64,000 bases of DNA from positions 806,001 to 870,000 of the forward strand of contig NC_089458.1 of the NCBI RefSeq assembly GCF_026210795.1, in the 5' to 3' direction. The stretch is from Rhizophagus irregularis (taxonomy: Eukaryota > Glomeromycota > Glomeromycetes > Glomerales > Glomeraceae). The notes beneath the pieces are model-generated. The model was not told where the DNA came from. It saw nothing but the letters and a program-made list of their open reading frames with translations, and did not search any database. Numbering within the stretch: the stretch's first letter is position 1; the number at the start of each line of letters is the position of its first letter. This document shows positions 1-59,276 of the stretch, in pieces. The position numbers and the translations under genes are program-made.

Positions 1-330
1 TATTTTTAATTTTTTTTTAACTTATAATGTATCAAAAAATGTGTCATATTTCTTGAAAATAACCTCCGTATACTAAAAGAATTAAGATAATTTGACAAGT
101 AGGAATCAATATTAAAAGCTAATTCCATTCATATCTGCACAATAGTTAAACTAATTTGTCAAATACATTTTTATAAGGATCAAGTTGTTTAGCAATATCA
201 AATTTAATAATAGCTAAAAGGATATTAGCAGATATACTATTTGAATTCATTGTAATAACTTTATCAAAGGCTTGGGCTGCTTCATTAAACCAATTCAATT
301 TAATGAAGCAGTAGTAAAAAGAAAAAAAAT
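1..330 (-). pseudogene. TPR-protein gene fragment (decayed)
   Basis: Read on the minus strand, about 110-330 gives a TPR-like helical stretch (FNEAAQAFDKVITMNSN, then SANILLAIIKFDIAKQLDP) followed by stop codons. The outer part (1-110) is homologous to 19,787-20,015 and 22,329-22,410, which also lie next to TPR fragments. The fragment has no start and no intact frame and is cut by the window edge. It appears to be one of several dead copies of the same lineage-specific TPR gene; others lie at 22,125-22,420 and 27,830-28,440. Confidence 0.5.
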
Positions 331-8800: not shown

Positions 8801-9376
8801 ATAAGTTAAGAAGAACCTTAGCAATATTTTCTATTATAAAGTTAAAAGTCTTATAAAACAACTACTTCCTACTTCTTGAAATTGTAAAAAACTTATCTTT
8901 TTTTACATTTGACCGTCAAAAATTACTTACATAAAAGGTACTTTATTTTTTACTTTTTTTTTCATGGAAATTTTTACTAACATTTCAAAAAAAAAAAAAA
9001 AAAAAAAAAAAAGATTATCCTTCCCCTTAAAAAAAACATAATTAATTAATTAATTTCACATTAAACTGTCTTACCTACAAAAAAAAAAATCATCATGCAC
9101 TAAACACACATACTTACACACACGAAACATACACGTCTATAATTCTCTTAAACCCTTTCTATATATATAAATTTTTATCAAAAAAAAAAAATAATTAATT
9201 ATTATATGTATATATATATTTTTTTTATATATATAATATAATTATTTATTATTTATTATTTATTTATTATTTATTTTATTTTTAAAAAAAAATTCGTCAA
9301 AGTATTTTTACTCATTTAATTCTTCACACCATATTTTTTTTTTCATTTTTCATTTTTTTTTTATTCTAGTTACCAA
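2891..9376. other. AT-rich intergenic region without recognisable genes
   Basis: Open frames here are short, low-complexity and rich in Phe, Leu, Lys and Ile, as expected from poly-A/T DNA. One local direct duplication is visible: ATCTGTTATATTAAATGTAA recurs near 4,050 and 4,165 followed by a similar GGTCACGCAGA motif. The last 300 bases before 9,377 are T-rich and end in TTTATTCTAG, which would serve as a 3' splice site of a 5'-UTR intron of the next gene. Confidence 0.55.
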
Positions 9377-12362: not shown

Positions 12363-13095
12363 ATGTTGTAATGTAATTAAGCTATAAAAAGTACCATATG
12401 TACTTTTTTTATTTTACCTTTTTTTTTCGCTTCATATTTCTGTTGTTTCTGTTTTTTTGTGATTATGAACAATCAGTTCGAAAAATGTTTTCAAAAAAAA
12501 ATTTTTTCATCACTTTTTTCTTTTTTTTTTTCGTTTCCCCCTACATATCCAAAATTTCTTTGTAAAAAATTTTTTTTTTCTTCCTGTAAAAAAGTTTTTT
12601 TTCTTTTTTTTCAATATTCTATTTGCGGTGAGAGTATAAAAAAAATATAAAATTTAAAAAAAAATGAATAAAAAAAACAAATAAATAAATTTGATAAAGG
12701 GGATGTGAAATCGATCCTTTTTAAGCGAAAAAAATATTCGTTCTTTTATCAGTGGTTTTTTAATAATGAGAATTAATAATACTCCGTGACTAGATATGTG
12801 GAGATGATGAGCGGTGTATGACATCTTATGTGTCGAATGTGACGAACATACTTTACATACTTTGAAATGAACTGGCCAACTGGCCAAAATTATTATAATG
12901 CGAGCCGGAAGTGTTATTTATCACTTGACCCTTATATGACACACCCTTGTCATGTGAATAAAACGTCATCATTTGTGATAGATCAAAACAAATAAAAGTA
13001 CGACTTTTTGTTTTCATCAAGTCAACTTGAAACGTATTCCTCGACTTTTTTCTTTACCTCAATACTCTCAATACTTCAAATAAAAAGGAACAATA
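12363..13095. other. Intergenic region between the Abp2-like gene and SLX1
   Basis: It is T-rich just after the upstream stop codon (likely 3' UTR), then holds mixed sequence without conserved coding signals. Short open frames here are not supported. The 130 bases before the SLX1 start contain pyrimidine-rich stretches and an AAATAAAAAGGAACAATA leader immediately before the ATG. Confidence 0.5.
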
Positions 13096-14037
13096 ATGAC
13101 GGAAAAAGAAAATCATCAACTTGAAACAACGGATTTGAAATATGAAGAGTTTTATTGTTGTTACCTTTTACGTTCACTTTCTCCTAAATATAAACAAACC
13201 AGTTATATAGGAAGTACTAATGATCCAAAAAGACGTTTACGACAACATAATGGGGAAATAGCATCAGGAGCGAAAAAAACTTCAAATAAAAGACCATGGG
13301 AAATGATACTTTTCGTTTATGGATTTCCTAATCATGTAGCAGCATTACAATTTGAATGGAGTTGGCAAAATCCTTCAATAACTCGTAGATTACAATTAAA
13401 AAATCGTGAAGAATTTAAAGAAAATGATGATAAATTATCAACATCACTTTTAGCATTATCAAAAATGTTAAAAGATAAATTTTGGTCAAGATGGCCATTA
13501 CATTTACATATTTTAATACCAATTGAATCTATTATATTACGACAAAATAAATCTTTAAAAATCAATGCTACGAATTTTTTTGATATTAAAAATTTATCAA
13601 AAAATATTAGGATAACAAATGGTAATATAGAAGATTTTAATAATTATAAAAAAAATTTTATTAGAAAATTTATTAGAAATGAATATTTAAAATATTTAAA
13701 TCATACAAAAAATTATAATAATAATAATAATTCACCTTATTATTGTAATTTATGTTTAGAAAATATTGATTTTAATAATCATAAAAATTATTTAAATTGT
13801 TTAAATATGGAATGTAATATGTCATATCATATTACTTGTCTTGCAAAAAAATTCACGAAATTGGAAGCATTAGAAAATTCAACTTTTGATAATCCTTATA
13901 ATGAATTATATGAAGAAATTTTACCTATTAATGGAAAATGTCCTAATTGTCAAATATTTTTATTATGGGGGGATTTGATTTTATCTATGATGATTAGAGA
14001 AAAATATGTTCAAAATGATCTTATATTGGATGAATAA
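13096..14037 (+). CDS. SLX1: Structure-specific endonuclease subunit SLX1 (GIY-YIG nuclease)
   Basis: A single exon encodes 313 aa, the usual SLX1 size. The N-terminal GIY-YIG domain spans about residues 19-95: FYCCYLL, then SYIGST (Y37, G39), PKRRLRQHN (R49, H51) and the catalytic-region glutamate in QFEWSWQNP (E87). The C-terminus carries the SLX1-type zinc finger: CNLCLENIDF, MECNMSYHITC and GKCPNCQIFLLWGDLI. In the family it is the catalytic subunit partnered by SLX4 and cuts branched DNA such as 5' flaps and Holliday junctions in the nucleus. All key residues of both domains appear present and nothing is broken. The start is the first in-frame ATG after an AT-rich leader; no intron is needed. 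The codons are strongly A/T-ending, like the neighbours. Confidence 0.93.
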   Translation: MTEKENHQLETTDLKYEEFYCCYLLRSLSPKYKQTSYIGSTNDPKRRLRQHNGEIASGAKKTSNKRPWEMILFVYGFPNHVAALQFEWSWQNPSITRRLQLKNREEFKENDDKLSTSLLALSKMLKDKFWSRWPLHLHILIPIESIILRQNKSLKINATNFFDIKNLSKNIRITNGNIEDFNNYKKNFIRKFIRNEYLKYLNHTKNYNNNNNSPYYCNLCLENIDFNNHKNYLNCLNMECNMSYHITCLAKKFTKLEALENSTFDNPYNELYEEILPINGKCPNCQIFLLWGDLILSMMIREKYVQNDLILDE

Positions 14038-15472: not shown

Positions 15473-18318
15473 TGTTGTATTAGGGATGTTAAAGGTTCCA
15501 GGTTCATGAACTTAAACTGAAAGTTCCAAACCTGGTTTGAAGGAAACTCAGTTCCATTTTTGGAACTATATGTAAACTAAGTTCGTAATTAGTTCAACCA
15601 ATTATAAATGCAGATTTACATATAAAAATAGATTATATAAATATATTATATGATAATCAAGTGATAATTGATAATCAGTCATCTGATTATTTAAAAGTTG
15701 ATCTAACGCGTTTAAAAAAAATTTTACGTGTTATTATGACTATTAAAGATGGAGTTAACCATAGCAGAAACCAGCCAGTTACAACAATTAAGAGCTGAGA
15801 TACTAGGCGAACTTGATAAAGATGAGAATAATTTATATAGTGAAGAGGAAGAAGAAAATATTAATGAAGACGAAAACTTAAATAACAAAAAGAGTTCTGC
15901 TTGGAACTATTTTAAATTACAAATTTCTGGAAAAAAATATGTAAAAATTGTTCTCAAAAATATGGTGAAAAGATGGGAATATCAACTTTAAAGAAACACC
16001 TTTATTATAAACATAATATTATTATAGATAAAATTAAAAATACTCAAACAACTTTGAATTTTCCTAGAGTTGATCCATAGCCAATTACCGAACAGCAGGT
16101 GCGAAATATAGCTTTTGTAGATTGGATAATCTCTGACCTACAACCATTTAAAATTGTTGAAAATCCTCATTTTGTTTATATGTTTAAAATATTTAATCCA
16201 AGATATCAAGTTCTTAACTGACAGAATTTAAAGGAAATGGTTGTAAATAAATTTAATACAATCAGAAAAAATATTGGTGCATTTATGGTTCAAATTCCAG
16301 GAAAAATTGCGCTTACAGCTGACATGTGGATGAGTAAATTTACAAATGATGCATTTCTTGGCCTCACCATCTATTATATTGATCAGAAATGGAAGTTGCA
16401 GAATTTCCTATTAGATATCATATCTTTTACTAAACGGCATACTGAAATCAATATATATTGCAACATCAATTAATAATGTTTTAAATGATTTTAATTTTCA
16501 AGAAAAAACTTTGGCTCTTACAACTGATAATGAATCGGCTATGATTGTGTGTGGAAGAACGTTTGGACAACAATTGATTACTCAACTTGATTCTCAAAAT
16601 TTTAGACATTACCGTTGTACCGCCCATATTCATCTTAATCTTGCTGCACAACAAGAACTTGAAATGATATCAGATGAAGTTATTAAAGTATGAGAATTAA
16701 TGAATAAAATTAAGCATTCAATAGTAATTAGCGATCAGTTGAAAAATTTGTGTTCATACGCAAAAATTACATATTTGAGACCAGAATTGGATTGTAAGAC
16801 GAGATGAAATTCAACTTTTAACATGTTAAAAAAATTGGAAAAAATGTGGCGTGGATTGCAATTATTGGCAGTTGAAAATAAGGAAATTCAAAATTTAATG
16901 CCTATCAATAATGAATGGAAAATAATTAAAGTCAGTATTGAATAATTGAATGAATATTAGTATTAATTTATATTCATTATAATTAATACAATTTCTTTGA
17001 TTTTTTTTATCATAGGATACACTTACTGTTTTGGAGCCTTTGGAAAAAGCTACAGTCTATCTTTCTACTGCTAGATATCTGACAATTGCAGATGTTCGGT
17101 TTGTTTTTTTAGGAATTTTGGATTATTTGAATGATTTGATTGGATCAGAAGAATTTAGTCAAAATGAATTAGCATCATCTATAAATCAAAAGATTGATGA
17201 CTATTGGAAATATATTGATGAACAAACTTTAGTAGCTGCAATTTTAGATCCTCAGACAAAACTTACTTTATTTGAATCAGGAACACCAACCACTAATGCA
17301 ATATCCACTGTTACAGCTTTATTACGTAGTTATCATGTTGTGACAAGTGAAAATTGCAAAAAAACTCAAGATGAAAATAATTATAGTAGTACACGAGAAT
17401 ATTTTGCACGAAAACAGTATCATTTATCTGAAAGTAATTTACGCCAATCATCTATTTCTTCTATTGCAAGTTCTATATCATTAGAAGAAACTTTTCCTGA
17501 ATTAGACCGATATTTAGCTTTACTTTGTGATGAAAAAGCAGATCCGTTATTGTGGTGGCAGGCACATCAACAAGAATTTCCAAAATTATCGTTAATGGCG
17601 AGAGACTACCTTTGTATTCAAGCAACTAGCGTTGCATGTGAACAACTTTTTTCTGTTGCAGCCAATACTATTACTAAAACCTGAAATAGACTTGACCCAG
17701 AAACAGTCAGGGCTACTTTGTGCACTAAATTCTGGTTAGAAAAAAAAGGTATAAGTAAAAATCATTAATACTAGTATCTGTAAATATAATTACTTATACA
17801 ATTTACGTATTTGAACATTATATGTGAAATGTATATACAGTATAAATATAACAATAAAGATAATTTTTGGCAAAAATTTAAGTGTATAAGGGTACGGTTG
17901 GTGGAGCACTGGTGGAGCCGTAGTTTTTTTATAAAAATTTTTTAAAATTAAACTAAACTTGGAGGTTAATCAATTAAACGATTAAAAATAAATTTACATA
18001 TACTCCACATAGTGTTTAATATTTTAAATATTTAACAACTTGCCGTAAAAATTGGAAGAAAAAAAAAAATACATATGTACTACGTATAATATCGTAAATC
18101 CCTCCATTATTTGTTGAATATCACATGATATTTGAATTGCAACCGCTAATTAAATCGATTTTTATATTTAAATAAAGAGTTCAAACCTTATTTGAACTCC
18201 AGTTCTGAACAAGTTCAAACCTATTATAAAAACTCAGTTCCCGAGTTCTACCTATTGGAACTTTAAGGAACTGAACCTAAACTAAACCTAAACGAACCTT
18301 AACATCCCTATGTTGTAT
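15473..18318 (+). mobile_element. hAT DNA transposon with perfect 8-bp target-site duplication
   Basis: The element occupies 15,481-18,310 (2,830 bp). Its left end TAGGGATGTTAAAGGTTC and inverted right end TAGGGATGTTAAGGTTC differ by one base indel. It is flanked by identical 8-bp repeats TGTTGTAT at 15,473-15,480 and 18,311-18,318, the hallmark of hAT insertion. The subterminal regions carry repeated AAGTTC/GAACTT words. The body is a decayed transposase gene described separately. Confidence 0.9.
15749..17768 (+). pseudogene. hAT-family transposase, inactivated
   Basis: The order of domains is preserved. A BED-like zinc finger lies near 15,895-16,010 (frameshift near 15,945; distal HLYYKH). 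The catalytic core has TADMWMSK (about 16,315) and ALTTDNESAM (about 16,511). The TRWNST-like motif near 16,800 reads TR-stop-NST. The C-terminal dimerisation region has WWQAHQQEFPKLSLMARDYL and CEQLFSVA. An intron (16,931-17,015, GTCAGT...CATAG) separates the last exon. In-frame stops are TAG at 16,078, TGA at 16,219, TGAs near 16,692 and 16,804, and TGA near 17,682. Several fall where Trp or Arg is expected, so they are transition mutations. Another frameshift is near 16,450. It cannot make an active transposase; its ends could still be moved in trans. Confidence 0.85.
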
Positions 18319-18590: not shown

Positions 18591-19009
18591 GTAACATGTA
18601 CTAATATTCACCTCTTGTCCCTTTATAGTAGTCTATATAAGATATACTGATATTTTAGATTACACTAATTTAATTCAGGTTGGCACTATAAACTTAGCCT
18701 GAATTAATAAGAGGATTTCCATCATTACATCCAAGTAATTAGATTTTTTAGCTCTTATTTCAACACAAAATGTGAACAACTTTTGTTTTATAAAATGTAT
18801 GTTAATAAGAAGCTATAATTTAATTTTTAAATAAACTCAGAGTTTGCATAATGCCACCAAGAATTAGACTTTGGCTTGCATTATGATTCATTATGTAATG
18901 ATAATTCGATGTAACAATATATTTTACCTAAACCAACAGCATCAGTATATCAAGGTCTGACTGTAAATAATTTATTATTATATAATATTTAAAATATAAA
19001 AAAAAAATT

Positions 19010-20020
19010 TAAATTTTAATTATTGAGTAAACTATTATCTATTTTTAATTGTCATATTAATACAACTTTACCATTTTATTAATCAAAAATAATAATATCT
19101 AATATATAAAAAATTAAATTAACAATAAAAAATATAAATTAATGGTTTTAAACTGATAAAAATTATTAATTATTGAATAAACTATTATTTATTTTTAATT
19201 GTCATATTGATGTAATTTTACTATTTTATTAATCAAAAATAATAATATCATAATATATAAAAAATTAAATTAACAATAAAAAATATAAATTAATGGTTTT
19301 AAACTGATAAAAATTATTAATTATTAAGTAAACTATTATCTATTATTAATTGTTATATTGATGCAACTTTACTATTTTATTAATCAAAAATAATAATATT
19401 GAAAAAAATTATTAATTATTGAATAAACTATTATCTATTTTTAATTGTCATATTGATGCAACTTTACTATTTTATTAATCAGAAATAATGGTTTTAAACT
19501 GATAAAAATTATTAATTATTAAGTAAACTATCATTTATTTTTAATTGTTATATTTATGCAACTTTACTATTTTATTAATCAGAAATAATAATATCTAATA
19601 TATAAAAACAATAGAAAATATAAATTAATGGTTTTAAACATAAAAATTGTTTTCTATTATAGTTTACAAAAGAAATTAATTTGTCTAAAAAAAATATAGT
19701 TCAAATTTGTTGATATAAAATTTGTACAATAAAAAAATATATAAAAAGACCTTATTTTTTTTTCATTTTTTTTTCTTTGGAATTAGCTTTTAATATTAAT
19801 TTTACTAAATCCAGTATACTAGTTTTTTTAATTGTACAGATTCTATCTTCAAAAAAAATATGACACATATTCTGATCCATTATAAGTTAAAAAAAAATTA
19901 AATTTTTAATATTAATTCTACTAAATCCAGTATACTAGTTTTTTTAATTGTACAGATTCTATCTTCAAAAAATATGACACATATTCTGATCCATTATAAG
20001 TTAAAAAAAAATTAAAAAAT
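19010..20020. repeat. Inverted copy of the 1-1,380 repeat block
   Basis: 19,010-19,650 is the reverse complement of the tandem array at 441-1,380. It is followed by the promoter-like block (19,652-19,753). Then comes a direct duplication of about 115 bp (19,787-19,905 and 19,906-20,015) starting TTTTAATATTAATT and containing AAATCCAGTATACTAG and TATGACACATATTCTGATCC. A related copy lies at 22,329-22,410. Part of this may be decayed exon sequence of the TPR gene. Confidence 0.65.
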
Positions 20021-20129
20021 ATATAAAATACAATATCACAAAATAACATAATTAGTAAAAAAAAAAAGAAGTCTTCTGAAGCAATATATAATAATTATTA
20101 ATACTTGACTACCTTAACTATTTTCTTAA

Positions 20130-20480
20130 AATACACTCAAAACTGCTGAATCTAAGAAGGAAACAAAAAATGATGATTCAAAATCGAAGGAAAAAGAAAA
20201 ATATGTTCTGGTAGTACCTTCAGAATTAGAATCTAGTAAAAAGAATGATAAGAAGGAAGCGAATACTATTCAAGATACACCAAAATCTGATAAGAAAGAA
20301 AAGAAAGAAAAGAAAGGTGAAGAACCACTTACTCAAGAAACACCAAAATCTGACAAGAAAAAGAAAAAAAACCTGATAAAAGACAATATACTGAGCAGGA
20401 ATTATTCAAAGCAGAAGCTGAACAAAAAGACTTTTTTATTGCTATTATGCAGTTAGTTATGAGAAAAAGTACTAAATAAA
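20130..20480 (+). pseudogene. Lysine/glutamate-rich coding remnant
   Basis: An open frame reads through SKKETKNDDSKSKEKEK and two imperfect repeats of the TPKSDKK type. A frame change at the A-run near 20,365-20,372 switches to TEQELFKAEAEQKDFF and ends at TAA near 20,478. There is no start codon in frame, and a stop lies just upstream. No domain is recognised. The low-complexity charged composition suggests a disordered segment. It is placed between the promoter-like repeat and the exportin-2 fragments. Confidence 0.4.
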
Positions 20481-20494
20481 ATATACAGTTTTCT

Positions 20495-22115
20495 GTGTCA
20501 CTACTTTTTAATAATTATATAAGAAGAAATTGGATGCAGAAAGAAAATTCAAACTTAATATTATTGAGGATTTCCAGTAATTAAAGAACTTAAAAGAACC
20601 AGAAATCTGGAAATTTAAAGAAAATTCTATAAAAATAAGGATTAAAATTAGATTCTTTAGTTTAAATTTTAAAGTCTAAACTTTTACATCTTTAAACCTC
20701 CAGAGATAAGAATGGCGATTAAAAAAAGTTTAGTTGATATTTTGATATATGTACTGTCAAATATACAACTTTAACTAAATGAAACTGTATCTTTAATTGC
20801 TGAAAATAATTTTCCTGATTAATGGTCATACTTGATCTCACAATTAACTAGTAAATTTAATTCAGAAGACTTGCCAAAATAATGCTGTTTTGCAAACTTG
20901 TTCATCCCTATTAGCAACTTTTACAGGTGACTAATATACCAAAGATGTAATATATAGTAATGATATTTATCCTCAAACATATTCAAAAGATGGATTTTAC
21001 CTTAGAAGTTTTTTTTAAAAATTATATAAGAAGAAATTAGGTGTAGGAAGAAAATTTAAACTTAATGTTATAAGAAGATTAAAGAACTTAAAAGAATTAG
21101 AAATCTGGAAATTTAAAGAAAATTCTTAATAAATTAAGATATAATGAAGAATTAACATTAGATTCTTTAGTTTAAATTTTACATTCTTAAAATTCCAGAA
21201 ATAAGAATGGTGATTAAAAAAAATTTGCTTGATATTTTGATATCTGTACCGTTAAATATATAACTTCAACTAAGTGAAGCTGTATTTTTAATTGCTGAAA
21301 ATAATTTCCTGATTAATGGCTATACTTGATCTCACAATTAACTAGTAAATTTAATTCAGAAGACTTTATCAAAAATAATGCTCATTCAATATTTAAAAAG
21401 TATAAGTTAGAATTCTGAACTGATTCATTATATAATGAAATCAACTTTATTTTAAATCAATTTGTTTATTCCTATTGGCAACTTTTACAAGCAACTGATG
21501 CCTTCAAATATATTCAAGAGATGGATTTTACCTTAAAGGTTTTTTTTAAGAATTATATACAAAGAAATTAGATGCAGAAAGAAAATTTAAACTTAACATT
21601 ATAAGAAAATTTCCAGTAATTAAAGAACTTAAAAGAATCAGAAATCTGAAAATTTAAACTGATAAAATTCTTAATAAATTAAGATATATAAGAATTAAAA
21701 TTAGATTCTTTAGTTTAAATTCTAAAGTCCAAACTTTTACATTCTTAAAATTCCAGAAATAAGAATAGCAATTAAAGAAAATTTAGTTAATATTTTGATA
21801 TTTGTACTATCAAATATACAACTTCAACTAAGTGAAGTTGTATCTTTATTAATTGCTGAAAATGATTTTTCTGATTAATAGCCATATTTAATCTTACAAT
21901 TAACTAGTAATTTAATTCAGGAGATTTTACCAGAAATAATGCTATTTTGCAAACATATTAAAAAGTATAAGTTAGAATTCTGAATTGATCCGTTATATAA
22001 TGAAATCAACTTTATTTTAGATCAATTTGTTCATCCTTATTAGCAACTTTATAGATGACTAATGTTCTCAAATATTCAAGAAATGGATTTTACCTTAAAA
22101 GTTTTAAGATGAGCT
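20495..22115 (+). pseudogene. Three tandem decayed copies of the exportin-2 (CSE1/CAS) N-terminal region
   Basis: Three direct repeats of about 500-530 bp begin near 20,505, 21,015 and 21,545. Each starts with a NYIRRNW-like segment and goes on to an AIKKSLVDIL-type helix, then ETVSLIAENNFPD-Q-WSYL. Copies 2 and 3 also keep KKYKLEF...LYNEINFIL. These are the landmark segments of the exportin-2/CSE1 HEAT-repeat N-terminus, which recycles importin alpha. All copies carry stops. The W of RNW is TGG in copy 1 but TAG in copies 2 and 3. The Q of the FPDQW motif is TAA in all three (20,820, 21,314, 21,876). A TGA before TDSLYNE is shared by copies 2 and 3. Copy 1 has an internal deletion. None could encode a functional exportin; the functional gene must lie elsewhere. 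Confidence 0.68.
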
Positions 22116-22124
22116 AAAAAATAT

Positions 22125-22420
22125 GCTGATTTCAAATTTATGTAATTTGAAATGCATTATCAATTTGTTAAAGCTTATTATTTTATAAAAAACTATGATA
22201 AGATTTTTTATAAGGCTTTTTATTACTATATAATAGATATTAATGAAAATTATATTTCAATGTGTTGATCTTTATAAAAATGTATTTAGCAAGAAAGATT
22301 AATTAACTATTGCGTAGACATGAAGTATATGGAATTAGCTTTTAATATCGATTCTACTAAATCCAGTGTACTAATTCTTTTAGTATACAGATTCTATCTT
22401 CAAGAAAAAATAAATTTTAC
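22125..22420 (+). pseudogene. TPR-protein fragment, copy directly after the exportin-2 repeats
   Basis: The frame reads FEMHYQFVKAYYFIKNYDK, then FYYYIIDINENYISMC, with in-frame TAA/TGA codons. It then shares sequence with the 1-330 fragment (YKNVFSKK...). The A-Y-F-I-x-N-Y-D-K-A-F-Y-Y-Y pattern is TPR-like. It is homologous to the two copies at 27,830-28,440 but has extra small deletions. Confidence 0.5.
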
Positions 22421-22429
22421 CCTTAAAAA

Positions 22430-24580
22430 GAAGTAATAGTTTAATAAGAAAAGAAATGTATATAAATCCATTAATAATGAAAGAATTGAAATGAATTATA
22501 AATGGTCAAAAAAGAATATTGATGGGTAATAAAGATTATGCATATTTTATTATTTAGATAAAAACTGCAAAATTGATTCCAAATATTGGACTAAAGATTA
22601 AATGCTAAATTTGGTAAAAGTATTAACTTAATAATAGGTGAAGATGAAAGATTTTATATTAAGTCTATTAATAATGAAAGAATTGAAAAAAATTATTCAA
22701 AAAAGCGAGATCATGAAAAAAGATGATAAAAAAAAAGAATGTTGTTAAATAACAATAATTTGAGATTAGATTAAGCAATGAACATATTTTATTAGAGACT
22801 GCAAAAATTGAATTTCTTGTTAACATACAAAAAAGTAATGATCTTGAAGGATTAGAAATAAAGAATTTTATATTTATTATTACACTAATCATATGGAACG
22901 ATATAGCTACAAATTTTTTGAATTTGAGTTTTGCACTGATAAATAATGTCATTATGCTAATAATTCAAATTACAGAAATAATAGTATATATAAGTCCATT
23001 AATAATAAAAGAATTGAAAGAAATTATTCAAGAAAGTGAGATTATGAAAGAAGATGATTAAAAATAATCAAAAAAAAATATTATTGGATTATTTGGGTAA
23101 AACTTGAGATTAAATTAAGCAATAAATATATTTCATTTAAAATTGCAAAAATTGAATTTCTTATTGACATATTAATTCTAAAAGATTATGCATATTTTGT
23201 TATTTAAACAAAAACTGCAAAATTGACTTCAAATATTAGGCTAAAGATTAAATGCTAAATTTGGTAGAAGTATTAACTTAATAATGGATGAAAATGAAGA
23301 ATTTTATATTAAGTCCATTAATAATGAAAGAATTGAAAAAAATTATTCAAAAAAGCAAGATTATAAAAAAAATGATTAAAAATAGTCAAAAAAGAATGTT
23401 GTTAAACAACAAGAATTTGAGATTAGTCAATAAATAAGCTTTAACGTGCATATGTTAACAATTAAACTTTTATACATATAAATCTAACAATAAACCTCGA
23501 TAATAGAACAAAAAAAAATCCAAGAGAATTTTTCATAAATTAATAAAAAGCCTTCGCCTTTTTCTGATTGATTAATAAAAACCTTTGTATAATGAATATA
23601 TTTTATTTGAGACTGCAAAAATTGAATTTCTTGTTAATGTACAAAAAAGTAATAATTCTGAAGATTATTTAGACAATTTAGACAAAAACTGCAAAATTAA
23701 CTTCAAATATTAGGCTAGAGATTAAATGTTGAATTTGAAAAAAAGTCTTAATAATAGTAGAGATGAAGAATTTTTTATGTTTATTATTATATTAGTCATA
23801 TAGGATAATATGGCTACAAATTTCTTGAATTTGAGTTTTACGCTAATGAATAATATAGAAATGATAGTTTAATAAAAAAATAATAAAAGAATTGAAAAAA
23901 ATTATTTAAGAAAGTGAGATTATGAAAGAAGACAATCAAAAATGATCAAAAAATAATGTTATTGGTAACAAGAACTTGAAATTAGATTAGACAATAAATA
24001 TATTTTATTTGAGACTGCAAAAATTAAATTTCTTGTTGATATACAAGAAAATGATAATTCTGAAGAATATGTGTATTTTATTATTTGAACAAAAATTGCA
24101 AAATTGACTCCAAATATTGGGTTAGAGATTAAATGTTAAATTTGGGAAAAGTGTTAATTTAATAACAGGTGGAAATAAAAAATTTTATGTTCATTATTAC
24201 ATTAAAGATGAAGAATTTTATATTCATTATTATACTAATCATATGGAATAATATAGCCACAAATTTCTTAAATTTTACACTAATGGATAATATTATTATA
24301 CTAATAATTCAAATTACAGAAATGATAATTTAATAAGAAAAAATATATATCTGATATATAATAAGTCCATTAATAATAAAAGAATTGAAAAAAATTATTT
24401 AAAAAAGTAAGATTATAAAGGAAGATGATCAAAAATGGTCACAAGAACTTGAAATTAGATTAAGCAATAAACATATTTCATTTGAAATTACAAAAATTGA
24501 ATTTCTTGTATGTTAACATATAAGAAAGTGATAATCCTAAAGAATTACACATATTTTATTATTTAATATAAGATTTCAAA
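22430..24580 (+). repeat. Tandemly amplified decayed coding unit of unknown family
   Basis: Four to five degenerate units share the order AAAACTGCAAAATTGACT (near 22,562, 23,212, 23,683 and 24,092), CATTAATAATGAAAGAATTG and ATATGGAATAATATAGC-type segments. A frame such as HMERYSYKFFEFEF, then NKRIERNYSRK and LSNEHISFETAKIEFLV can be followed between stops. Spacing between units varies from about 400 to 650 bp. No known domain is recognised and no copy is intact. Confidence 0.55.
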
Positions 24581-24734
24581 TACTTAGTATTTTCACTTAT
24601 TAGGTTACTTTTTAAAATCAAACTTATCTAAGAAGTATCTCATAATTTATATAATTTCCAATAAATTAAAATTTTCTAATAATTCTAAAACATATGTTTT
24701 TCATAATATAAATTTAAAATTTAAATTTTCATAA

Positions 24735-25060
24735 ATTAAAAAAAAAACTGATATAACTTATACTTGTAAAATTTATGAATAAGCAATTTTACTTAATAAA
24801 GTAATTAAAAATATGTTTTTGAAATATACTGAATTAAAATATAAATTAGAAAAAAGAGTAAAAACACTATATGCTTACACATCTTAATTTTGTAATTTAA
24901 GGATAGTATTATTTTTCTGATAAATATAATATAACTTTGAAATTAAGTATGGTAATAAAGATATATTTAAAGAAATGCTTTGAATTAAGCTAAGTATACA
25001 AGCTCAATATAATATAGAAGTAATATAGAAATTAATTTTATATTTGTTCAAATACTTGCT
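24735..25060. repeat. Direct repeat, copy 1 (partner 29,365-29,690)
   Basis: From ATATAACTTATACTTGTAAA through ATATGCTTACACAT to TTAATTTTATATTT this segment matches 29,365-29,690 with scattered substitutions. A broken frame (YTCKIYE, then KNMFLKYTELKYKLEK) suggests decayed coding sequence. Confidence 0.55.
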
Positions 25061-26440
25061 ATTAAACAAGTTCAATAGAGTGATCAAAAAAGTGGTTAAA
25101 TGCAAGTACCTTCAAATAGATCATCTGTTTTTGAAATTTTAGTACTAAAAACTTACATGATTAATATCATTCCAATAATCATGAATTTATCAAATCATCT
25201 CAATAAAATAAATCCAATGAACTAATAATCATGAAATTCTCACTGGATTATAAAGTATCATAGAATAATTTTAGATATTTAAAGCATAATTACATATCAA
25301 ATATCTATCCTATAAGCACAAAATTACTATCATTAGAATTGTTTTAATAAATCTATTGAATCTAAGATCATAAAATCCAATCACTGGATATTAAAATATT
25401 CTTAATATATGATTTAAATTTTTAAAAAAATTAAGAGTTTCACAATCTTTGTAAATCTATGTAACTTATGTTTGCTAATCTTACATTGAATCCCTTATAT
25501 AATATCAAATTATTTATATCATATTTACATGCCTTATTAAATTTCTTAACAAAAGTATTTGAAAAGTATATTAAAAATATGTAAAAGATATTTTTCTGAA
25601 ATATTATAAGATGTATATAAGCCATTATTATGGCAAATAAAAATAGAATTTAATGATAAATTTTTATTTTAATTAATAACTAAAGATGCAATAAATGTAC
25701 TGCACTTAAATTTTTACCTTTACTTTATTAGTATGTATATAATTTTTTTTACTTTGAAAAATGTCTGCATATCATTGGTCATCTTTGTAATATTAAATTT
25801 AATTATTAATAATTAAACTTCCATTAATATTTTATAATTTAAAATTATTAATTTTTATTTATATATTGCTATATATATAAATCTTACATTAGACATATCA
25901 TGTTATTTAATATTATATTTTAATTAGCTAATACTTATTTTATATAAAAGTAGAAAGGTAAAGTCTTATATTAAACTAATATTATATATATTCTTACCTT
26001 ATCATAAAGTTTAACTAAATGGAGTTTTGTATTTATCAATAAATATTAAAAATTTGCATTCATTAAGTAATAAAAAAAATAAATACTTAAATATTGCAAT
26101 ATTTTATTATTTATTATTTAATTTTTCAAGCATTTTTTTTTAATACTTTAATTTAACATTTATAGGTATTTTTTCAATACATCTTGTATTCAATAAGTGC
26201 TATTTATAAATATTCAATAAATGCTTTAATAAACATTATGATGTTTAATTTATTATTAAATAAAATTATTAATAAAATATTGAAAATAACTTATTTACCT
26301 TAAATTATAATATATTATTATAGTATTTATATAGTACTAGACAGGATAAGACAGAACAGGATAGAACATGAATAGAACTCTTTAAACTACAATTTTATAA
26401 TTTAAAACTTCCTGTGATACTTTTATGTCATATTAAATTT
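25061..26440. other. Very AT-rich region with no recognisable feature
   Basis: No open frame beyond chance and no repeat unit or RNA gene is seen. The composition is extreme A/T with short homopolymers. A small G/C-richer island, GACAGGATAAGACAGAACAG, lies at 26,340-26,359. Confidence 0.5.
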
Positions 26441-27115
26441 AAACATTAAATTATTCATAAAACTGGTAAAATTAATTTGAAACTAATAAAACTAATCTAA
26501 AATTAGTAAAACCAAAACTAATAAAACTAATTTGAAATTAATAAAACTAATTCAAAACTAATAATTAATCTAAATTAGTAAAACTAATTAAAATTAATAA
26601 AAAAAATTCAAAATTAGTAAAAATTAATTATTGTAATAAACTGTTACAAATAGTTTTTATTTTTTAATTTAAAGAAAAAACTATTTCACAATAATTTTAT
26701 TAATTATTATAATAAAAAATGTTATAAATCACTTTTTATTATTTATTTAACAAAAAACTATTGGAATAGTTTTTATTCTTTAAATTTAAAGAAAAATTAT
26801 TTAACAACAATTTTCAATTGTTACATTTTTTAGTAATGATTTTTAATTAATAAAAAATGTTGAGAAATATTTTTTATTATGATTTTTTTATTTTTATGAT
26901 AAGAACATTTACTAACATTCTTTATTACCTTTTTTATAATAATCTGCATAAGTTTCAGATTAATTTTAAAAGTTTTAAACTAGTTTCAAAAGTTTCAAAT
27001 TAGTTTTAGAAGGTTTGAAATAGTTTTAGGAATTTTGAAATAGTTTTAGAATTTTAGACAAATTTCAGTTTTAGTTTTAGTTTTAGTTTCAGTTTTAGAA
27101 ACTAAAAAATAGTTT
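26440..27115. repeat. Minisatellite arms in opposite orientation
   Basis: 26,460-26,640 is built of AAACTAAT/AAAACTAATTTGAAATTA-type repeats. 26,940-27,110 is built of the complementary motif (TTTTAGTTTTAGTTTCAG, AAATAGTTTTAGAA). The 300-bp middle repeats ACTATT/AATAGTTTTTATT words, also in both orientations. The whole could fold as a large imperfect inverted repeat. Confidence 0.55.
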
Positions 27116-27129
27116 CAAGCAGCATCTTT

Positions 27130-27232
27130 ATCTATTATAGTTTACAAAAGAAATTAATTTGCCTAAAAAAAGTATAGTTCAAATTTATTAACACAAAGTT
27201 TGTACAATAAAAAAATATATAAAAAGACCTTA
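27130..27232 (+). promoter_or_regulatory. Candidate promoter of a multicopy gene family (third copy)
   Basis: About 100 bp shared with 19,652-19,753 and, inverted, 329-440. It ends in a TATA-like ATATATAAAAAGACCTTA. It lies upstream of the TPR fragments at 27,830. Conservation among copies while the flanks diverge is seen; promoter function is inferred. Confidence 0.4.
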
Positions 27233-27284
27233 TTTCTTCTTTTATTCCTTTCATTTTTTATTCCTTTCATCTTTTTACTATAAT

Positions 27285-27800
27285 TACAAGTATATCCTTC
27301 TTACAAGTATCAAATTTTTATAAACATCAGATTCAAAACAAATAATGTGATTGAATCTGATTAATATAATGTGATTTCTCAAGTTATTATTCTATAAGTA
27401 GTGATAAAGTAATGTGATGATTTTTTATTCCTCTTATTTTTTATTCTTCTCATTTTTTTTACAAGTATCAAATTTTTATAAACAACAAACTAAAAACAAT
27501 AATATGATTGAATCTGGTTAATATAATGTGATTTCTCAAGTTATTATCCTATAAGTAGTGATGATAAAATGAACTACTAAATGAATTGGATCAAGTTATT
27601 ATCCTATAAGTAGTGATACTATAATTACAAATATATCCTTCTTATAAGTATCAAATTTTTATAAATAACAGACTAAAAATAATAATGTAATTGAACCTGG
27701 TTAATATAATGTGAATATACCAAAATATTTATGAATAATTATGCTGATTTCTCAAGTTATTATCCTATAAATAGTGATGAAGTAATATAACTACTAGAAA
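27285..27800. repeat. Three direct repeats of about 150-180 bp
   Basis: Each unit contains ACAAGTATCAAATTTTTATA-like sequence, then TTGAATCTGGTTAATATAAT, then TCAAGTTATTATCCTATAA and AGTGAT. Units start near 27,285, 27,460 and 27,615. An extra half-unit (AAGTTATTATCCTATAAGTA) is inserted near 27,595. They are placed where a 5' leader of the following TPR remnant would be. Confidence 0.6.
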
Positions 27801-27829
27801 TAAAACCTTACTAATAAGAGGTCATATTC

Positions 27830-29200
27830 TTTTTACACTGATTTTAAATTTATGCAATTTGAAATATATTATCAATTTTCTAGAGCTTATCATTTTATAA
27901 AAAACTATGATAAGGCCTTTTATTACTATTATCATGCAATAGACATTAATGAAAATCATATTTCAATATGTTATCATGGATACAGACAAATATTGATTTG
28001 TAATGATTATTATGAAGAAGCTAAATGAATTCAAAAAATTATGGTATCTAAATATCAAAAATTTAGATATTATTACAGTTTTATATGTATTGAACACTTA
28101 TATTAACTTTAATGACTCAGATCAATCAGTTAGGTAAAAAGCATTAAATAGATAGGAGGTTATATTTTTTTTACACTGATTTTAAATTTATGCAATTTGA
28201 AATACATTATCAATTTGCTAGAGCTTATCATTTTATAGAAAACTATGATAAGGCTTTTTATTACTATTATCATGTAATAGACATTAATGAAAATCATACT
28301 TCAATGTGTTATGGATATAGACAAATATTGATTTGTAATGATTATTATGAAGAAGCTAAATGAATTCAAAAAATTATGGTATCTAAATTAACTTTAGTGA
28401 TTCAGATCAATCAGTTAGGTAAAAAGCATTAAATGATTTTGATAGAATCTTAAAAGCTTTTGTAGACAAATATAAGAATCCTAACATTTCAATAATAAAG
28501 GCTAAATAAAAAAAAAAATTCAGTTAAAGCACTTATATCATTAAAGAAAGCAAAAAAATTATATGAATGTCTTTATAGATCAGTTCCATTTAAACTTCTC
28601 AATAAAATGGAAAATATGGCTTTTAAAATTAAATTATAAGAAACAAATTCTTTGTGAAGTTAAAAAAAGATAAGAATCTGCAAAAAAATATTTTATCAAA
28701 AGATTTCTAACTTAGAAGAATTATCAGAATATCATTTTATATAAAAGGAAAGAAAAGAAATAGATTAAATATTAGAAGTTAATTAAAATATACAGCATGG
28801 AAAGAAAGTCAAATATGGAGCATATTCAATAATAAATGAAAGAGCATTGGATATGGATTTATGCAATATTACTCTTTTTATTAAATATACTGAATGGAAA
28901 ATCATGCTAGAAATTTGTTTGATTGTACTATTACTTTATTATTATAAGTGGATTAATTATGATACAAATATATTTATATAAAAAAAATATTAGGAAATGA
29001 AGAAATATTAGGAAATATTGCAGGAGTACATTAAATATTTAAATGGTGAATGCAGTAAAAACTGGATAAATCAGCATGAAATGCTTATATCAAAATGGAA
29101 AAAAAATACTAAGAAATTAATAGAGCAAAAGCAATTTATAAGAGGTTCATTAATATACATTCAAAACTAAAGAATTGGTTGAAATAAAATAAATTTAACT
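27830..29200 (+). pseudogene. Decayed TPR-protein gene with internal duplication
   Basis: Two direct copies (about 27,835-28,110 and 28,160-28,430) read FKFMQFEIHYQFARAYHF, then YDKAFYYYYHVIDINENH, then YGYRQILICNDYYEEAK, a clear TPR helix pair. Both stop at the same TGA where a codon for Trp or Arg is likely. Downstream, DRILKAFVDKYKNP, KKAKKLYECLYRS and KYGAYSIINERALDMDLC can be read between many stops and frame changes to about 29,190. By architecture it was a cytosolic TPR repeat protein of several hundred residues. No intact copy is in the window. Confidence 0.55.
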
Positions 29201-29364
29201 TCTGTTTCTAAATTAATGATATTTATTCCAAATTGTTAAAAAATAACATAAATTTGAGGAAATAAAATAATTATTAGATTAATATTTTTTTTTTAAATAC
29301 CAAAATAACCAGATCAGTATCTAATGAAGATCGATTTGAGATATTTAACTTTTATATTGTCAAA

Positions 29365-29690
29365 ATGAGTGTTAACTTTAATATAATTTATACTTGTAAA
29401 ATTTATGAAGTTTTACCTGATAAAGAAGCTAAAAATATATCTTTGAAATATGCTAAATTAAAACATAAACTAAAAAAAATTGATAAAATAAGAGCATTAT
29501 ATGCTTACACATTAATTCCAATTTTATGATTAAATAACAGTACCATTTCTTTGGCAAATATAACATAACTTTAAAATCAAGTATGGTAATGAAAATATCA
29601 AGCAAAGTATACAAATGCAATATAATATATAGAAGTAATACAAAGGTTAATTTTATATTTACATAAATTTGAAGAAGATGAATAGATAGA
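29365..29690. repeat. Direct repeat, copy 2 (partner 24,735-25,060)
   Basis: Matches 24,735-25,060. Here the broken frame reads YTCKIYEVLPDKEAKNISLK, longer than in copy 1, so this copy is less decayed. Function unknown. Confidence 0.55.
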
Positions 29691-29894
29691 TAGAATATTG
29701 TTTAAAAAAAATATTTTGATTCAGATGATCAAATTATTTAAATTTCAAATTATTGGTAATAATATATGCTATATTTTAGTATATTTATAAATAATATCTC
29801 AGATTTTCGATTTTAAAATTTATTATTATTGTTCCAATATATTTATTATAATAATAATAGAACTTCTTTATTATAAATTTATGTATTCTAAAGA

Positions 29895-31150
29895 TACTAT
29901 ATAAAGGTAAAAATAATAGAGATAGGGATTGTGATAGGGATTAATATACTTATAAAATAGCCAAGATTCTTAGTAATTCATAGAAATATAACACTGCAAT
30001 TCTACCTTATTACTAAATTTATCATTATAGAAATTCCAGTTCTCTTTAAATAGTTATCCAAAAGTATCTAAAGATTATTATTGAAGAAACTTCTACTGAA
30101 ATTAATAGAGTAAAACTTCCTTCTAAATAAAATCCAAATAATATTGAATTTAACAATTTATATTTAGATATAAATAGTATTATTTATTCTGATAAGCCTA
30201 CTTTAGCTACAAAAGAAAATATGATGATCAAAATAATGAAATATACAAAGCAAATAGTTGCTATGATTCATCTTAGAAAAATTTTATATCTCATGATAAA
30301 GATAGGGATTGTGATAGAGATCAATGTACTTATAAAATAACTGAGATTCTTAGTAATTCATAGAAATATAATATTGTAATTTTACCTTATTACTAAACTT
30401 ATCACTATAGATTTCAGCTTTTTTTAGATAGTTATCCAAAAGATCATAGAATAAGTTATTAAAAAGACTTTTACTGAAGTATATATAAGTAAAACTTTTA
30501 TTTAATATTTTTAAATAAAATTTAAATAATATTGAATTTGATAATTTATATTTAGATATGAATGATATTATTATTATCTGGAGAATAAGCCTATTCTAGT
30601 TATTATATTTTTTATTAAAATAACAAAATACTAATTAAATTTATTTTAATAAATGTAATGTATTTTGACAAATGTAATTAATTCATAAAATTTTATAATA
30701 AATAGTGAATTAGTCTATTTGCCAAAATATGATGTAATTAATTAGTTACTATTCATCCTTATTGTTATTTGAAGAACAAGTTTGCTTCAACTATAAAAGA
30801 AAATATAATGGTCAAAATAATGGAATATATAAAGAAAATAATTATTATGATTCATTTTAGAAAAGTTTTATATCTTGTAATAGAGATAGGGATTGTGATA
30901 GAGATCAACATACTTATAAAATAGTTGAGATTCTTAGTAATTTATAGAAATATAATACTGCAATTTTACCTTATTATTAAACTTATCACCATGAAAATTT
31001 CAGCTCTTTTAAATGATTATTCAAAAAGTATCTATAGATTATCAAGCAAATTATTAAAGAAGTTTCTATTAAAGTTAATATATATAAGTAAAACTTCTAA
31101 AAAGTATATTATTTTATTATTGGTTATAATAGATTGAATCTTGTAAAATA
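29895..31150 (+). repeat. Three tandem copies of an unknown decayed coding unit
   Basis: Units start with GATAGGGATTGTGATAGGGA-type sequence near 29,930, 30,298 and 30,885. They continue TACTTATAAAATAGC, GAGATTCTTAGTAATT and ACCTTATTAC. The frame DQCTYKIAEILSNS is interrupted by TAG at the same place in all three, then KYN-PYY and TAA again. The third copy keeps 70 codons open (30,925-31,137) by chance. No family is recognised. Confidence 0.6.
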
Positions 31151-32014
31151 TTTGCTACTATTAATTATTTTTATTAGAATGGAATGGTATTCTTTTATGA
31201 TAATCCTGATCATTATGACATTTCACTAACAATTACTTAGCTTAAGAAATAAGTAAATAAAGCTATTACCATGAGTGAACATGTCAGTTATTAAAGCTAA
31301 TAGGATTGTGGAATGTAATAAAAAATATCTTTAAAAGATGAGAATTTTATATTATTATTTTTGTTACTATTAATATATTAAATAACAATAAGATATATAA
31401 AAAAAAAACCTGATAAAATTTAACTTTTAATATAATAAATAAAAATAAAAATTATTTTATCTAAAATAATTTTTATTTTTTACCTTTAGTAAATTTTATT
31501 TTACTTTAATGAGCAATTGAATATTAAGATTATTTAATTTACTGTATTTAAATTATTTATAGTTTTTTTATTTTTATATTTACAAAAAAAAATATTTATT
31601 TTTTTTTTAAATTAATGCAACAACTAATAATAGAATTTTATAATTTATTATATTTTATAATAATATATAATAATTAGAGGTATAATATATATATTATTTA
31701 ATAATATTTTTTTTGTTTATATAAAAAGTAAATATAAACTTTTTTTTAATATATTTTTTTAAATTGTAAAAAGTAAAAAGTTTTTTTTTATTATTTTAGT
31801 TAATTAAGCAATTGTTTAAATTTTTAAAGAAATTTGCTTTTTTATTAAAGAAATTTTTTTAAAAAATATTATATTTATTAAACCAGTTGTTTTCTTTAAA
31901 GTTTATTAAAAATATTTGTTCATTATGAATTTTGATAAAATAATTTTGATAAAATAATAACTTTAATAAAACTTTTTTTTAAAAAAATTACATTTATTAA
32001 GGCAACCAAACAAA
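31151..32014. other. AT-rich spacer, no gene seen
   Basis: Homopolymer-rich DNA with no supported open frame. The last roughly 100 bases (TTTATTAAAGTTATT runs) lie just downstream of the URB2 stop codon and probably contain its 3' UTR and polyadenylation region on the minus strand. Confidence 0.45.
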
Positions 32015-35000
32015 TTAACCCCTTCCTACATATTTCCATTCTTTATTATAATCAATCCATAAATTTTTAAATAAATTTTTACCAACTACATCTAAATTAA
32101 CCATAATCATATCTCTTTCAAATTGTCCACATAAATCTAATAAAGAATAAGTTCCATTCTTTAATGTATCTCTTATATTTGCTTCTAATATATTATTCTT
32201 TGTTTGTATGTAAATATACTCTGATAATAATGAAGGAATATGTTTAACAAAAGCCTTATTATTAAAATTTGATTTATTTGATTTTTTACTATATGAAATT
32301 GTTGTTAATAATCTTGAAAATATCTTCGCACTTTCTATTGGTAATGGATTATTTAAGTGTTCTTCCCACCATGAAATATATCTTCCTTGGTGTTCTTTTT
32401 GTTGTACTTCTTTAAAATTCGCTCTAAACGATTTTTGAGTTTTTTTGAAACAATGAAACATTGTTTGTATAATAAATATGAATGTTGGTATTGTGTGATA
32501 TAATTGTTCACGACGATGCATAAGTATATCACAAAGTAAATAACAGATTTCTTCAAATAATTCTTTAAACTCTTGTTCTTCACTCAATTCATATTGTCGT
32601 TTAGGTAATATTAATGATATCACTGTAGATAAAACCAATCCAATATCCATGCTTTGAAACGAAAATGCCTAATTAAAAGTTTTTTTTGAAATTTTAATTC
32701 AATTTTTTCATTAAAAAATATCATAACATATTTGTTATTAATAATACATACTCTATGACAGATAAGAAATTTCAATATTCGTAATATTTGTATTCCATGT
32801 TTAACTTTATTTATTAATTCTGCTATACCACCAATTCCACAAAGTAAATTAGGAAGTTTTTTTTCCAATTTACGTAGTTGTTCTATAAATGCCAAAGTGT
32901 TAATTTAATTAGGTCAATAAAAAAAAAAAAAATTTTAAATTATATTTACCATAATTAGATTTACAAAGAAAGGTATTGATCAAATTAATTAAAAATATTA
33001 TATTATCGTTTGTATTATTTCTAACTGAAAATGATGAATTTTCAAGCTTATTCAAAATATCATTAGCAATAATATCATATTTTTCATTTGATAATTTTGA
33101 AATAATTGAATTAAACATCGCATCTAATTCTTTTGATAATTCACTATTCGGATCTGAAAAAAAATTGAGAGAGAGAATTAGAAAATAATTTAAAAAGTTA
33201 ATTCTAATCCAATTAAAAATTTAACGTAAAATATAATATAATACCTTCATTATAGAAAATTTTCATTAAATCACAAACAAATCTAAAAATTTTAAGTAAA
33301 ACATCCTTATCGAATTCATAATTAATTATAAATATAAATTCGATAACAATTGATAATAAAGTTATACACTGTTTTAATACAACTTTATTATCAAATGTAT
33401 CATCCATTTCTAATAAACTTGCATGTAACATTGATGTAGTAATTTTGAAAAATTTCGAAAGCAAAGAAATCACATTTGAAGCTTAATATAAATAAAAGAA
33501 TTATAAGTATTGACATATCGGTTTAATAATAAATAATAATATTATCATCATACCTTCTATGATAGCTTCCAATTCTGAATTCTTAAACAAACGATAATAT
33601 TGTAAACAAATCTTATATGTTTTCAGCTCATTATTATAATATTTAAATTCAGTAGATAATTTTTCTTTCCACTTTAAATCATCAGAATTATTAGAATTTT
33701 GGATTTCTTGAATTGATTTATCAAGAATATTTGAAAGAATTCTAATTAATTGCTTCTCTGAAACGGATTGTAATGTTATAAATGATCTCCAAACAGGATT
33801 ATCGCTATTAAGTTGAAGTGTTTTTAACTGCCTATTATTAAATATTAATGAAATTAGACTGTGTAATAAATAAATTATGTGTAATGACTATAAACTAAAT
33901 CCTTACTTGCGAGATTCAGCTGATTCTATACCAATCTTTAGAAATTCAGAAGTAAATCTCCATATAACATCATTTGATGAATCTTTCTCTTTGGAAAATG
34001 ATTCCCCTATACTATCAATCAGATTTTTAAAATAATCTACTGTTCTATTCAGATAATCTATTTTAAATTCATCATTATCTTGAAAAATAATAAGAACTTG
34101 TCTAAAGATAAAAAATATTTCAGGTAAATGATGTATATATTATTGTTAATATATAAATTTTCTTACCTTATTATTAATGTAAATATTTGACAAGTTATTT
34201 GTATAAATTTTTCAAAAAGATTTTGAATAGTTTCATTATTATTTATATAATCAACTATATATGTTTGATACATATTTATAGAAGATATCCACCATATAAT
34301 GAAAGATACATCTTTCTTCTAAAGTATATCAAATAATTATTTTGATTAAAAAAATCATATTAACAACTTTTATACATAATATTAAATTCCTTACCAGAAT
34401 ATCATCTTTTCTATTCATATAAGAAATAAATTTACAAATTAAACTTCTACACAAAATGGAGCATTTTAATATCTCTAAAAATTCATCCCAACTTTCTATT
34501 TTAATAAGTGATAACCATTTATCAACCAACAATGTTAATAATGAAAGATCATTGATTTCTTGCTTTGTAAAATATTCCATAGGAAATAAGTGTAAGAAAT
34601 TAAAATATTTTATTATCTTGTTAATACTTGTTAAAGAAAAACAAGTTACAGGATTTATAGTGCCGATACTTTCGTTAAAGCAAGATATCACATTCTTTAA
34701 CATATTTGGCCCTTCTAGTTGTTGACCAATAACTAGAATAATATCCAATTCCTTATTACTCTCATTTGATATTTTTATTTGTTTAAAGCATTTGAATATT
34801 TCTTCTAAATATACTCTTACAAAATTATCTATATTAAGTACATAAAAAGATAGTTAAAAAAAAATAAAATGACATTCATAATGATTAAAAAAAATATATT
34901 ACCTCGCAAAGGTTTCAATTCAAAAAACTCTGCAGATTTTAAATGTTGCAAGCATAAAGTTCCAATAGAAATTTCTTTGAGATGATGCAAGTCGATTGAT

Positions 35001-36761: not shown

Positions 36762-37406
36762 AATTAAGATCTAGTGGCTTAGATATCGGTCGATCTCTAT
36801 AATCATAATGTATAGCATTTCTCAAGGTACTTCTTACGTCACTATGTCAATATCGTAAAAGAGATACTACCTTTAGACCTTTAGGCATTTTTGCCATATG
36901 TGCGTATAAGGTAGTGAGTATAATTGGCGCCCAAAATAGTATCAATGAATATATAAAAAATTTTTTCGATGTCACAGCATATGTTGTATCTTGCCGTAAT
37001 GCAACTACCTTGGCATAAGAAATGTCTGCAAGCCTATTCAAATCCGATCAAATCAAATTTTCAATTTTTAATAAGTAAATAAGACAAGTACGCTTTTTCG
37101 GGAAAAAAATTTTTTCTTCAATAAGCGATTTATAATAGGATGATGTTTCTAAAAAAAATCAAAAAAACGCGGGTAAATTAATTAATTCGCTCTCAAGTCC
37201 TAATTTAAAATCAAAAATAAAACTAATTTTATAAATTCTTTTATGATAAAATAAGCTTTATTTATAAAATATACCACCCACTAACTTATAAGTAAATAAA
37301 ATATAACAGATAATAAAATAATAAAATAAAAAGCGTAAACCTAAAAAATGTCATGTATCAAAAAAGCTACTACATTCTAAACGATCAGGATGAATAATTT
37401 TTAATT
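36762..37406. other. Intergenic or 5' region between URB2 and the next minus-strand gene
   Basis: On the minus strand a 64-codon frame (36,847-37,041) contains one hydrophobic stretch (FFIYSLILFWAPIILTTLY) but begins with TTG, has no ATG start and sits behind a possible 3' splice site (CTTGCAG). It could be an upstream exon of URB2 or chance; neither could be settled. The remainder is AT-rich without signals. Confidence 0.35.
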
Positions 37407-39400: not shown

Positions 39401-39572
39401 AACGAAAAAATTTTTTATTGATAGGTATAAAAATGGACATTGCTCACACGACTGCACTCACTGCAGAATACGTTGAAATTTCCTATAAAAAGTATGAGAT
39501 TCGTCGCCAATATTTTTTTTATACATTCCATTCATATTTTAAAATCAAGATAAAAGAACGTTCAAAATTTGA

Positions 39573-59110: not shown

Positions 59111-59116
59111 GAAGTA

Positions 59117-59190: not shown

Positions 59191-59276
59191 AAAATTTCTT
59201 ATATTTGTATATCATAATTCCGGCCAAAAATTAACATAATTTTAGCCAGAATTATACTTAAAACTTTATTGTATCG

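Follow-up and report, generated by a model that had tools for sequence, protein, structure and literature searches.

A CpG-poor mosaic of host-gene fragments in Rhizophagus irregularis, whose decay looks like long-term silencing damage rather than classic repeat-induced point mutation

The window analysed here is a stretch of 64,000 nucleotides from Rhizophagus irregularis, corresponding to C30:806001-870000 (C-numbers denote contigs of the same genome), and its overall GC content is 25%. Between 18.9 and 32.3 kb, it holds a mosaic block of ~13 kb with decayed host-gene fragments, and part of this block recurs immediately upstream, inverted. When matches were retained at E <= 1e-8 and identity >= 62%, with overlaps removed, 34 decayed segments were obtained, 25 within the window and nine in the inverted arm outside it, and these derive from CSE1 (exportin-2), MAGO nashi, CTR9, XRN2/RAT1 and CLF1. 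The features are listed below by window position, unless a contig is named.

50..310, minus strand: CTR9 fragment of the inverted arm
19778..19855, plus strand: CTR9 fragment, with a further repeat at 19904-19984
20069..20960, plus strand: CSE1 copy 1, spliced; 5' UTR/exon 1, then fragments of exons 2-4 and 5-6
~20160-20370 and ~20556-20697: inserts breaking CSE1 copy 1, the former Lys-rich, the latter of 135 nt
20973..21501, plus strand: CSE1 copy 2, spliced, fragments of exons 2-6
21504..22064, plus strand: CSE1 copy 3, spliced, fragments of exons 2-6
22078..22423, plus strand: two CTR9 fragments
22429..24616, plus strand: seven MAGO nashi segments, decayed and spliced
23427..23587, plus strand: young insertion of 161 bases, 99% identical to C28:1883588-1883749
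27840..28688, plus strand: two tandem CTR9 fragments
28716..29196, plus strand: CLF1/crooked-neck fragment
29929..31097, plus strand: XRN2/RAT1 5' fragment, spliced, three tandem copies from four segments
C30 ~802.7-806.0 kb, beyond the window: continuation of the inverted arm, where eight MAGO segments accompany CSE1 copy 4
C30:805427-805955, minus strand, outside the window and ~21 kb upstream: CSE1 copy 4

The fragment order CTR9, CSE1, MAGO is common to both arms, which lie ~20 kb apart, and a transcript reading through both could, judging from this layout, form a hairpin. More broadly, C30 ~796-806 kb (L021) together with window positions 1-1363 makes up a broken inverted duplicate of the window's 19-27 kb interval. 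The short tail 3' of CSE1 copy 2 reads by eye as CTR9, and the Lys-rich insert of copy 1 is coding-like. Elsewhere in the window, Pfam matches mark a SLX1-like GIY-YIG gene (13084-14037), a hAT transposase remnant (17016-17684) and an Urb2-family exon (32015-32668), and a second cluster of XRN2 fragments lies on the same contig at C30:2371839-2372287. XRN2, CLF1 and MAGO act on RNA, CTR9 acts in transcription and CSE1 in nuclear transport; that all five recognisable source genes are nuclear-acting may reflect chance or recognisability.

The intact CSE1 parent was located via its Cse1 domain at C3:2680196 onward (L020), where the N-terminal 254 residues match the yeast importin-alpha re-exporter (E 1.8e-60). 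Another long stop-free Cse1-domain match, at C20:2876786, was set aside as the parent, its exons reading as what we take to be importin-7/8. The other parents were found on C1 for XRN2/RAT1 (PDB match 2.5e-43), C6 for CTR9, C28 for CLF1/crooked neck and C17 for MAGO nashi, and in the parts seen of these four genes the exons are open. The fragment matches of two of these parents are concentrated at the locus, since the six matches of the CTR9 parent comprise one to itself and five in the C30 region, and the 36 genome-wide matches of the MAGO parent comprise one to itself, 34 in the C30 region and a weak one on C7, which falls within a parental intron.

Comparison with the CSE1 parent bears out the exportin-2 identity and the tandem triplication of the original prediction, to which the fourth copy on the opposite strand outside the window can be added. 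The codons on which that prediction rested were also recovered by alignment with intact CSE1: the Trp of RNW, still TGG in copy 1, has become TAG in the other two copies, the Gln of FPDQ is TAA in all three copies, the next Trp after it is TAG in copy 3, and the Gln pair of IQLQ reads CAA/TAA in copy 1, TAA/CAA in copy 2 and CAA/CAA in copy 3. Taken together, the CSE1 copies cross the parental exon joints 1-2, 2-3, 3-4, 4-5 and 5-6, and are therefore derived from mRNA and were afterwards tandemly repeated. Introns are likewise precisely absent from the XRN2 and MAGO copies, which cross parental exon joints as well, while the CTR9 copies are uninformative on splicing because the part of CTR9 concerned has no parental intron.

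In all polarised counts of the block, the parent gene was used as a stand-in for the ancestor. Against intact CSE1, copies 1, 2 and 3 show 43, 37 and 43 transitions and 7, 2 and 1 transversions, respectively. Every one of these 123 transitions is C>T or G>A, as are 40 of the 43 transitions of copy 4. Over the 34 segments of the five genes, C>T was found at 980 of 2501 C/G sites and T>C at 20 of 4606 A/T sites, with 96 transversions; when each parent site was counted once, the figures were 504/909, 19/1631 and 68. The same direction holds gene by gene: CSE1 segments show C>T at 171/579 and T>C at 1/1085 (12 transversions), CTR9 segments 189/484 and 9/900 (13), XRN2 segments 124/313 and 4/578 (25), MAGO segments 443/1000 and 6/1829 (37), and the CLF1 segment in the block 53/125 and 0/214 (9). 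C>T and G>A occur in similar numbers in CSE1 (83/88), CTR9 (104/85) and XRN2 (62/62) and in uneven numbers in MAGO (173/270), and no strand runs of C>T versus G>A were detected in any of the 16 CSE1, CTR9 and XRN2 segments (lowest P 0.24). The proposed strand-symmetric C>T decay of duplicated DNA holds far beyond chance.

The proposal that these changes are often CA-to-TA did not survive the count over all cytosines, in which CpA is not a preferred context. The impression was an ascertainment effect that arose because stop codons had been examined, and CAA/CAG>TAA/TAG and TGG>TAG are CpA>TpA by construction. In CSE1 copies 1, 2 and 3, the C>T fractions are 0.24, 0.32 and 0.38 for CpA, 0.24, 0.27 and 0.32 for CpC, 0.21, 0.28 and 0.31 for CpT, and 0.54, 0.47 and 0.56 for CpG. 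The 34 segments give the same picture, with C>T at 273/474 cytosines in CpG (0.576), 178/379 in CpC (0.470), 305/853 in CpA (0.358) and 224/795 in CpT (0.282). Loss of CpG is nearly saturated in these segments, where 11 of 238 CpG dinucleotides remain intact versus 123 of 267 GpC, although the CpG excess per cytosine, reckoned from the intact fractions, is modest (~fourfold).

The history of the individual changes can be partly followed among the CSE1 copies. Considering the 246 columns covered in all three of copies 1-3 and counting any difference from CSE1, eight columns differ in all three copies and 31 in one, and the differences shared by two copies fall into conflicting groupings of 4, 5 and 7 columns. 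Whichever two of the four copies are paired, they share more C>T changes than independence predicts, for instance copies 1 and 2 (10 seen versus 4.6 expected). The conflicting groupings together with the excess of joint C>T indicate that the CSE1 changes were partly inherited and partly acquired separately.

The decay is accompanied by a CpG desert whose limits follow the repeat block. In 18908..32326, only 15 CpG were counted versus 118.4 expected, alongside 161 GpC, and in the core, 23842..29331, there is none versus 46.7 expected, alongside 62 GpC. Similarly AT-rich neighbouring DNA, which has little repetition within the sequence compared and in which CpG content stands in for the mutation spectrum, holds 73 CpG versus 57.2 expected at 4097-9000 and 229 versus 236.6 at 32327-47000. 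A second CpG-poor tract covers the inverted arm (C30 ~802-806 kb) and runs on through the window's first 4 kb, including 2073-4096. Parts of the block in which no gene was recognised are CpG-free as well. The 99%-identical insertion at 23427..23587 accounts for three of the 15 CpG counted in the desert, and since this young insertion retains CpG, the loss seems to be tied to age.

One-way C>T/G>A change on both strands, a feature of repeat-induced point mutation (RIP), is present in the block, and dinucleotide indices were computed as had been suggested. TpA/ApT and (CpA+TpG)/(ApC+GpT) amount to 0.933 and 1.342 in 19-31 kb, and to 0.84 and 1.32 in 32-47 kb. The composite RIP index is negative in both intervals (-0.41 and -0.48, respectively), where a value above 0 is given as the criterion for RIP in the portion of the source consulted (PMC12210899). 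Thus, the RIP indices barely separate the block from the rest, whereas CpG observed/expected (o/e) does. RIP of the CpA type is not supported at this locus, given that CpA is not the preferred context, that the composite index is negative and that LINE-like repeats change in both directions. Six PF00145 methylase matches were found in the genome, of which two could be named from PDB matches, one DNMT1-like and the other DNMT2-like, and no RID was recognised among the six. In the literature covered, which lies mostly outside subscription journals, no title was recognised as dealing with RIP or CpG deserts in Glomeromycotina.

Repeats outside the block served as controls. The GC-rich repeat at window 57000-64000 carries an RRM-bearing ORF, and 20 near-full copies are listed, including its own; it is LINE-like by our reading, RRM being the sole domain matched. 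Ten copies were compared over 1.6 kb, namely the one in the window and nine others that are 88-92% identical; one of the ten is partial, and such copies would suit RIP well as substrates. Their singleton changes run both ways, with C>T at 138/5793, T>C at 74/6628 and 49 transversions. Eight further copies, mostly more diverged, show 346/3597, 128/4203 and 105. Long dispersed repeats are therefore not hypermutated, although this control is clouded by selection on active elements. A dispersed three-copy family (L060-L062, on C18, C18 and C7) shows 57 C>T, 16 T>C and two transversions in a three-way count that leaves out the misaligned ends of the third copy. By context, its C>T changes amount to 25/168 in CpG, 17/231 in CpA, 7/132 in CpC and 8/249 in CpT, and its CpG o/e is 0.87-1.16; six of the 16 T>C create CpG and could each conceal a double loss. 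Since this family keeps its CpG yet diverges mainly via C>T, the bias may in part be a background effect. Its C>T excess is similar in kind to that of the block and weaker in direction, and it counts against the uniqueness of the block. The per-site C>T:T>C ratio is ~90 in the block, ~8 in L060-L062 and ~3 in the further LINE-like copies. L060-L062 carry a COX1-like stretch that may have come from mitochondria, and were reached from two of the three matches of a COX1 search; numts as a single-copy control were abandoned, as those three matches came with no mitochondrial contig and hence no ancestor. Tandem decayed CLF1 copies at C10:3393645-3394942 (L076/L078), in a CpG-poor spot (o/e 0.34), resemble the block in changing mainly by C>T, with C>T at 82/352, T>C at 8/668 and nine transversions. 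Unpolarised repeat pairs within the window, which by their nature give no direction of change, often have few transversions, with directions about even in most; transversions equal or exceed transitions in some AT-rich pairs, such as 27298-27531 (17 transitions, 20 transversions) and 1115-1363 (9 and 13).

The best explanation, which we hold tentatively and at somewhat less than even confidence, is that the block consists of retrocopied mRNA pieces that increased in number, were silenced and then decayed as cytosines were deaminated in connection with methylation, those in CpG before the others. Spliced mRNA pieces of the five host genes would have been copied to DNA by retrotransposition and perhaps fused through template switching, and the retrocopies would then have been multiplied in tandem and inverted orientation, silenced and methylated at cytosines. 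Once silenced, the block would lose cytosines in one direction through 5-methylcytosine deamination, at CpG first and more slowly in other contexts, partly before and partly after duplication of the copies. Deamination of methylated cytosine, which had been named as a second possible cause, fits better than RIP because CpG was lost first and has become so scarce throughout the block; the non-CpG C>T changes are not explained by it alone. The enzymes are compatible with this explanation: a cytosine methyltransferase is present, with a DNMT1-like exon on C20, while a BAH-domain exon on C12 falls below Pfam's cut-off. According to the part of a methylation study available to us, R. irregularis expresses a DNMT1-related enzyme, and its CG methylation is bimodal, strong in many repeats and weak in old and short ones (PMC8647823). 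The low methylation of short and old repeats may be a result of CpG loss or may be an argument against present methylation. More seriously, the published methylation is CG methylation, yet non-CpG cytosines are changed at 0.28-0.47, a loss that CG methylation by itself should not produce while T>C stays near zero. This part of the signal would require methylation beyond CpG, a second deaminating or enzymatic route, or an overall C>T bias stronger than base composition implies. Mutation of heterochromatin as in Neurospora was rejected as a full account, and in the excerpt consulted of the corresponding study the authors conclude that methylation makes only a small contribution to spontaneous mutation (PMC10234303).

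Ordinary neutral AT-biased mutation, under which C>T is the usual fate of unconstrained DNA and the fragments, being coding, simply began GC-richer, is unlikely but deserves serious weight. The transition share and the C>T bias are also high in L060-L062, and less so in the eight further LINE-like copies, and the low GC content of the window points the same way. Nevertheless, DNA resting neutrally at 19-25% GC implies a C>T:T>C ratio of ~3-4, far from that of the block, and the neighbouring AT-rich DNA stands at a CpG o/e of ~1, which a CpG-preferring decay would have removed. Additionally, in asexual Neurospora, A:T>G:C is reported, in the part of the source consulted, to be commoner genome-wide than C:G>T:A (PMC10234303). 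A C>T load acquired at the RNA or cDNA stage of retrocopying, through template editing or deamination before insertion, is very improbable: the CSE1, XRN2 and MAGO copies did pass through RNA, since they are spliced, but C>T and G>A come in similar numbers and are interleaved in CSE1, CTR9 and XRN2, the uneven MAGO counts being the exception, tandem copies bear different changes, and the parts of the block without a recognised gene are CpG-free too.

We regard as improbable, below the neutral account, a RIP-like mutator of Glomeromycotina that would sense duplications, tandem and inverted ones above all, and convert C to T enzymatically on both strands in the order CpG > CpC > CpA > CpT. It would account for the near-total one-way C>T in every context, for the sparing of the CSE1 parent, which is split by introns into short exons, and for the C>T excess of the dispersed L060-L062; moreover, the conflicting CSE1 groupings mean that a good part of the changes were separate and followed duplication. 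Against it stand both sets of LINE-like copies, which are not hypermutated, the young insertion that keeps its CpG inside the block, and the CLF1 segment, which has no second copy there, its relatives lying on C10, and is equally affected; moreover, none of the six PF00145 matches, two of them named, was recognised as RID. More doubtful still is a repeat-triggered C>T mutator of Glomeromycotina's own that made this hairpin-like cluster of mRNA fragments CpG-free, leaving an all-context signature that RIP indices miss. CpA-based indices would overlook such a process. What makes the finding interesting is the non-CpG part of the signal, and since the five parent genes are usable as ancestors, the block constitutes a polarised record of such decay in this lineage; whether these fungi mutate their own repeats becomes answerable with existing methylation and strain data.

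Compared with known systems, the block shares with ascomycete RIP the one-way C:G>T:A change on both strands of duplicated DNA and the destruction of reading frames, and differs from it in having no CpA preference, negative indices, spared LINE-like repeats and no recognised RID-type gene. The decay looks like long-term silencing damage rather than classic RIP. A precedent is the rust Austropuccinia psidii, in which, according to the excerpted report, transposons were depleted of CpG by deamination of 5-methylcytosine without RIP, old repeats lack CpG, RIP indices are insignificant and CpG methylation is the first silencing step (PMC12774611). The block departs from this case in its near-total CpG loss, sharp bounds, heavy non-CpG loss and host-gene fragments, and in lying in a Glomeromycotina genome. 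As to the putative copying step, chimeric retropseudogenes of Magnaporthe, attributed in the text available to LINE template switching, likewise fuse pieces of distinct cellular transcripts and are inserted as DNA (PMC2104539), whereas the block draws on five protein-coding mRNAs and is distinguished by tandem and inverted multiplication and by heavy decay.
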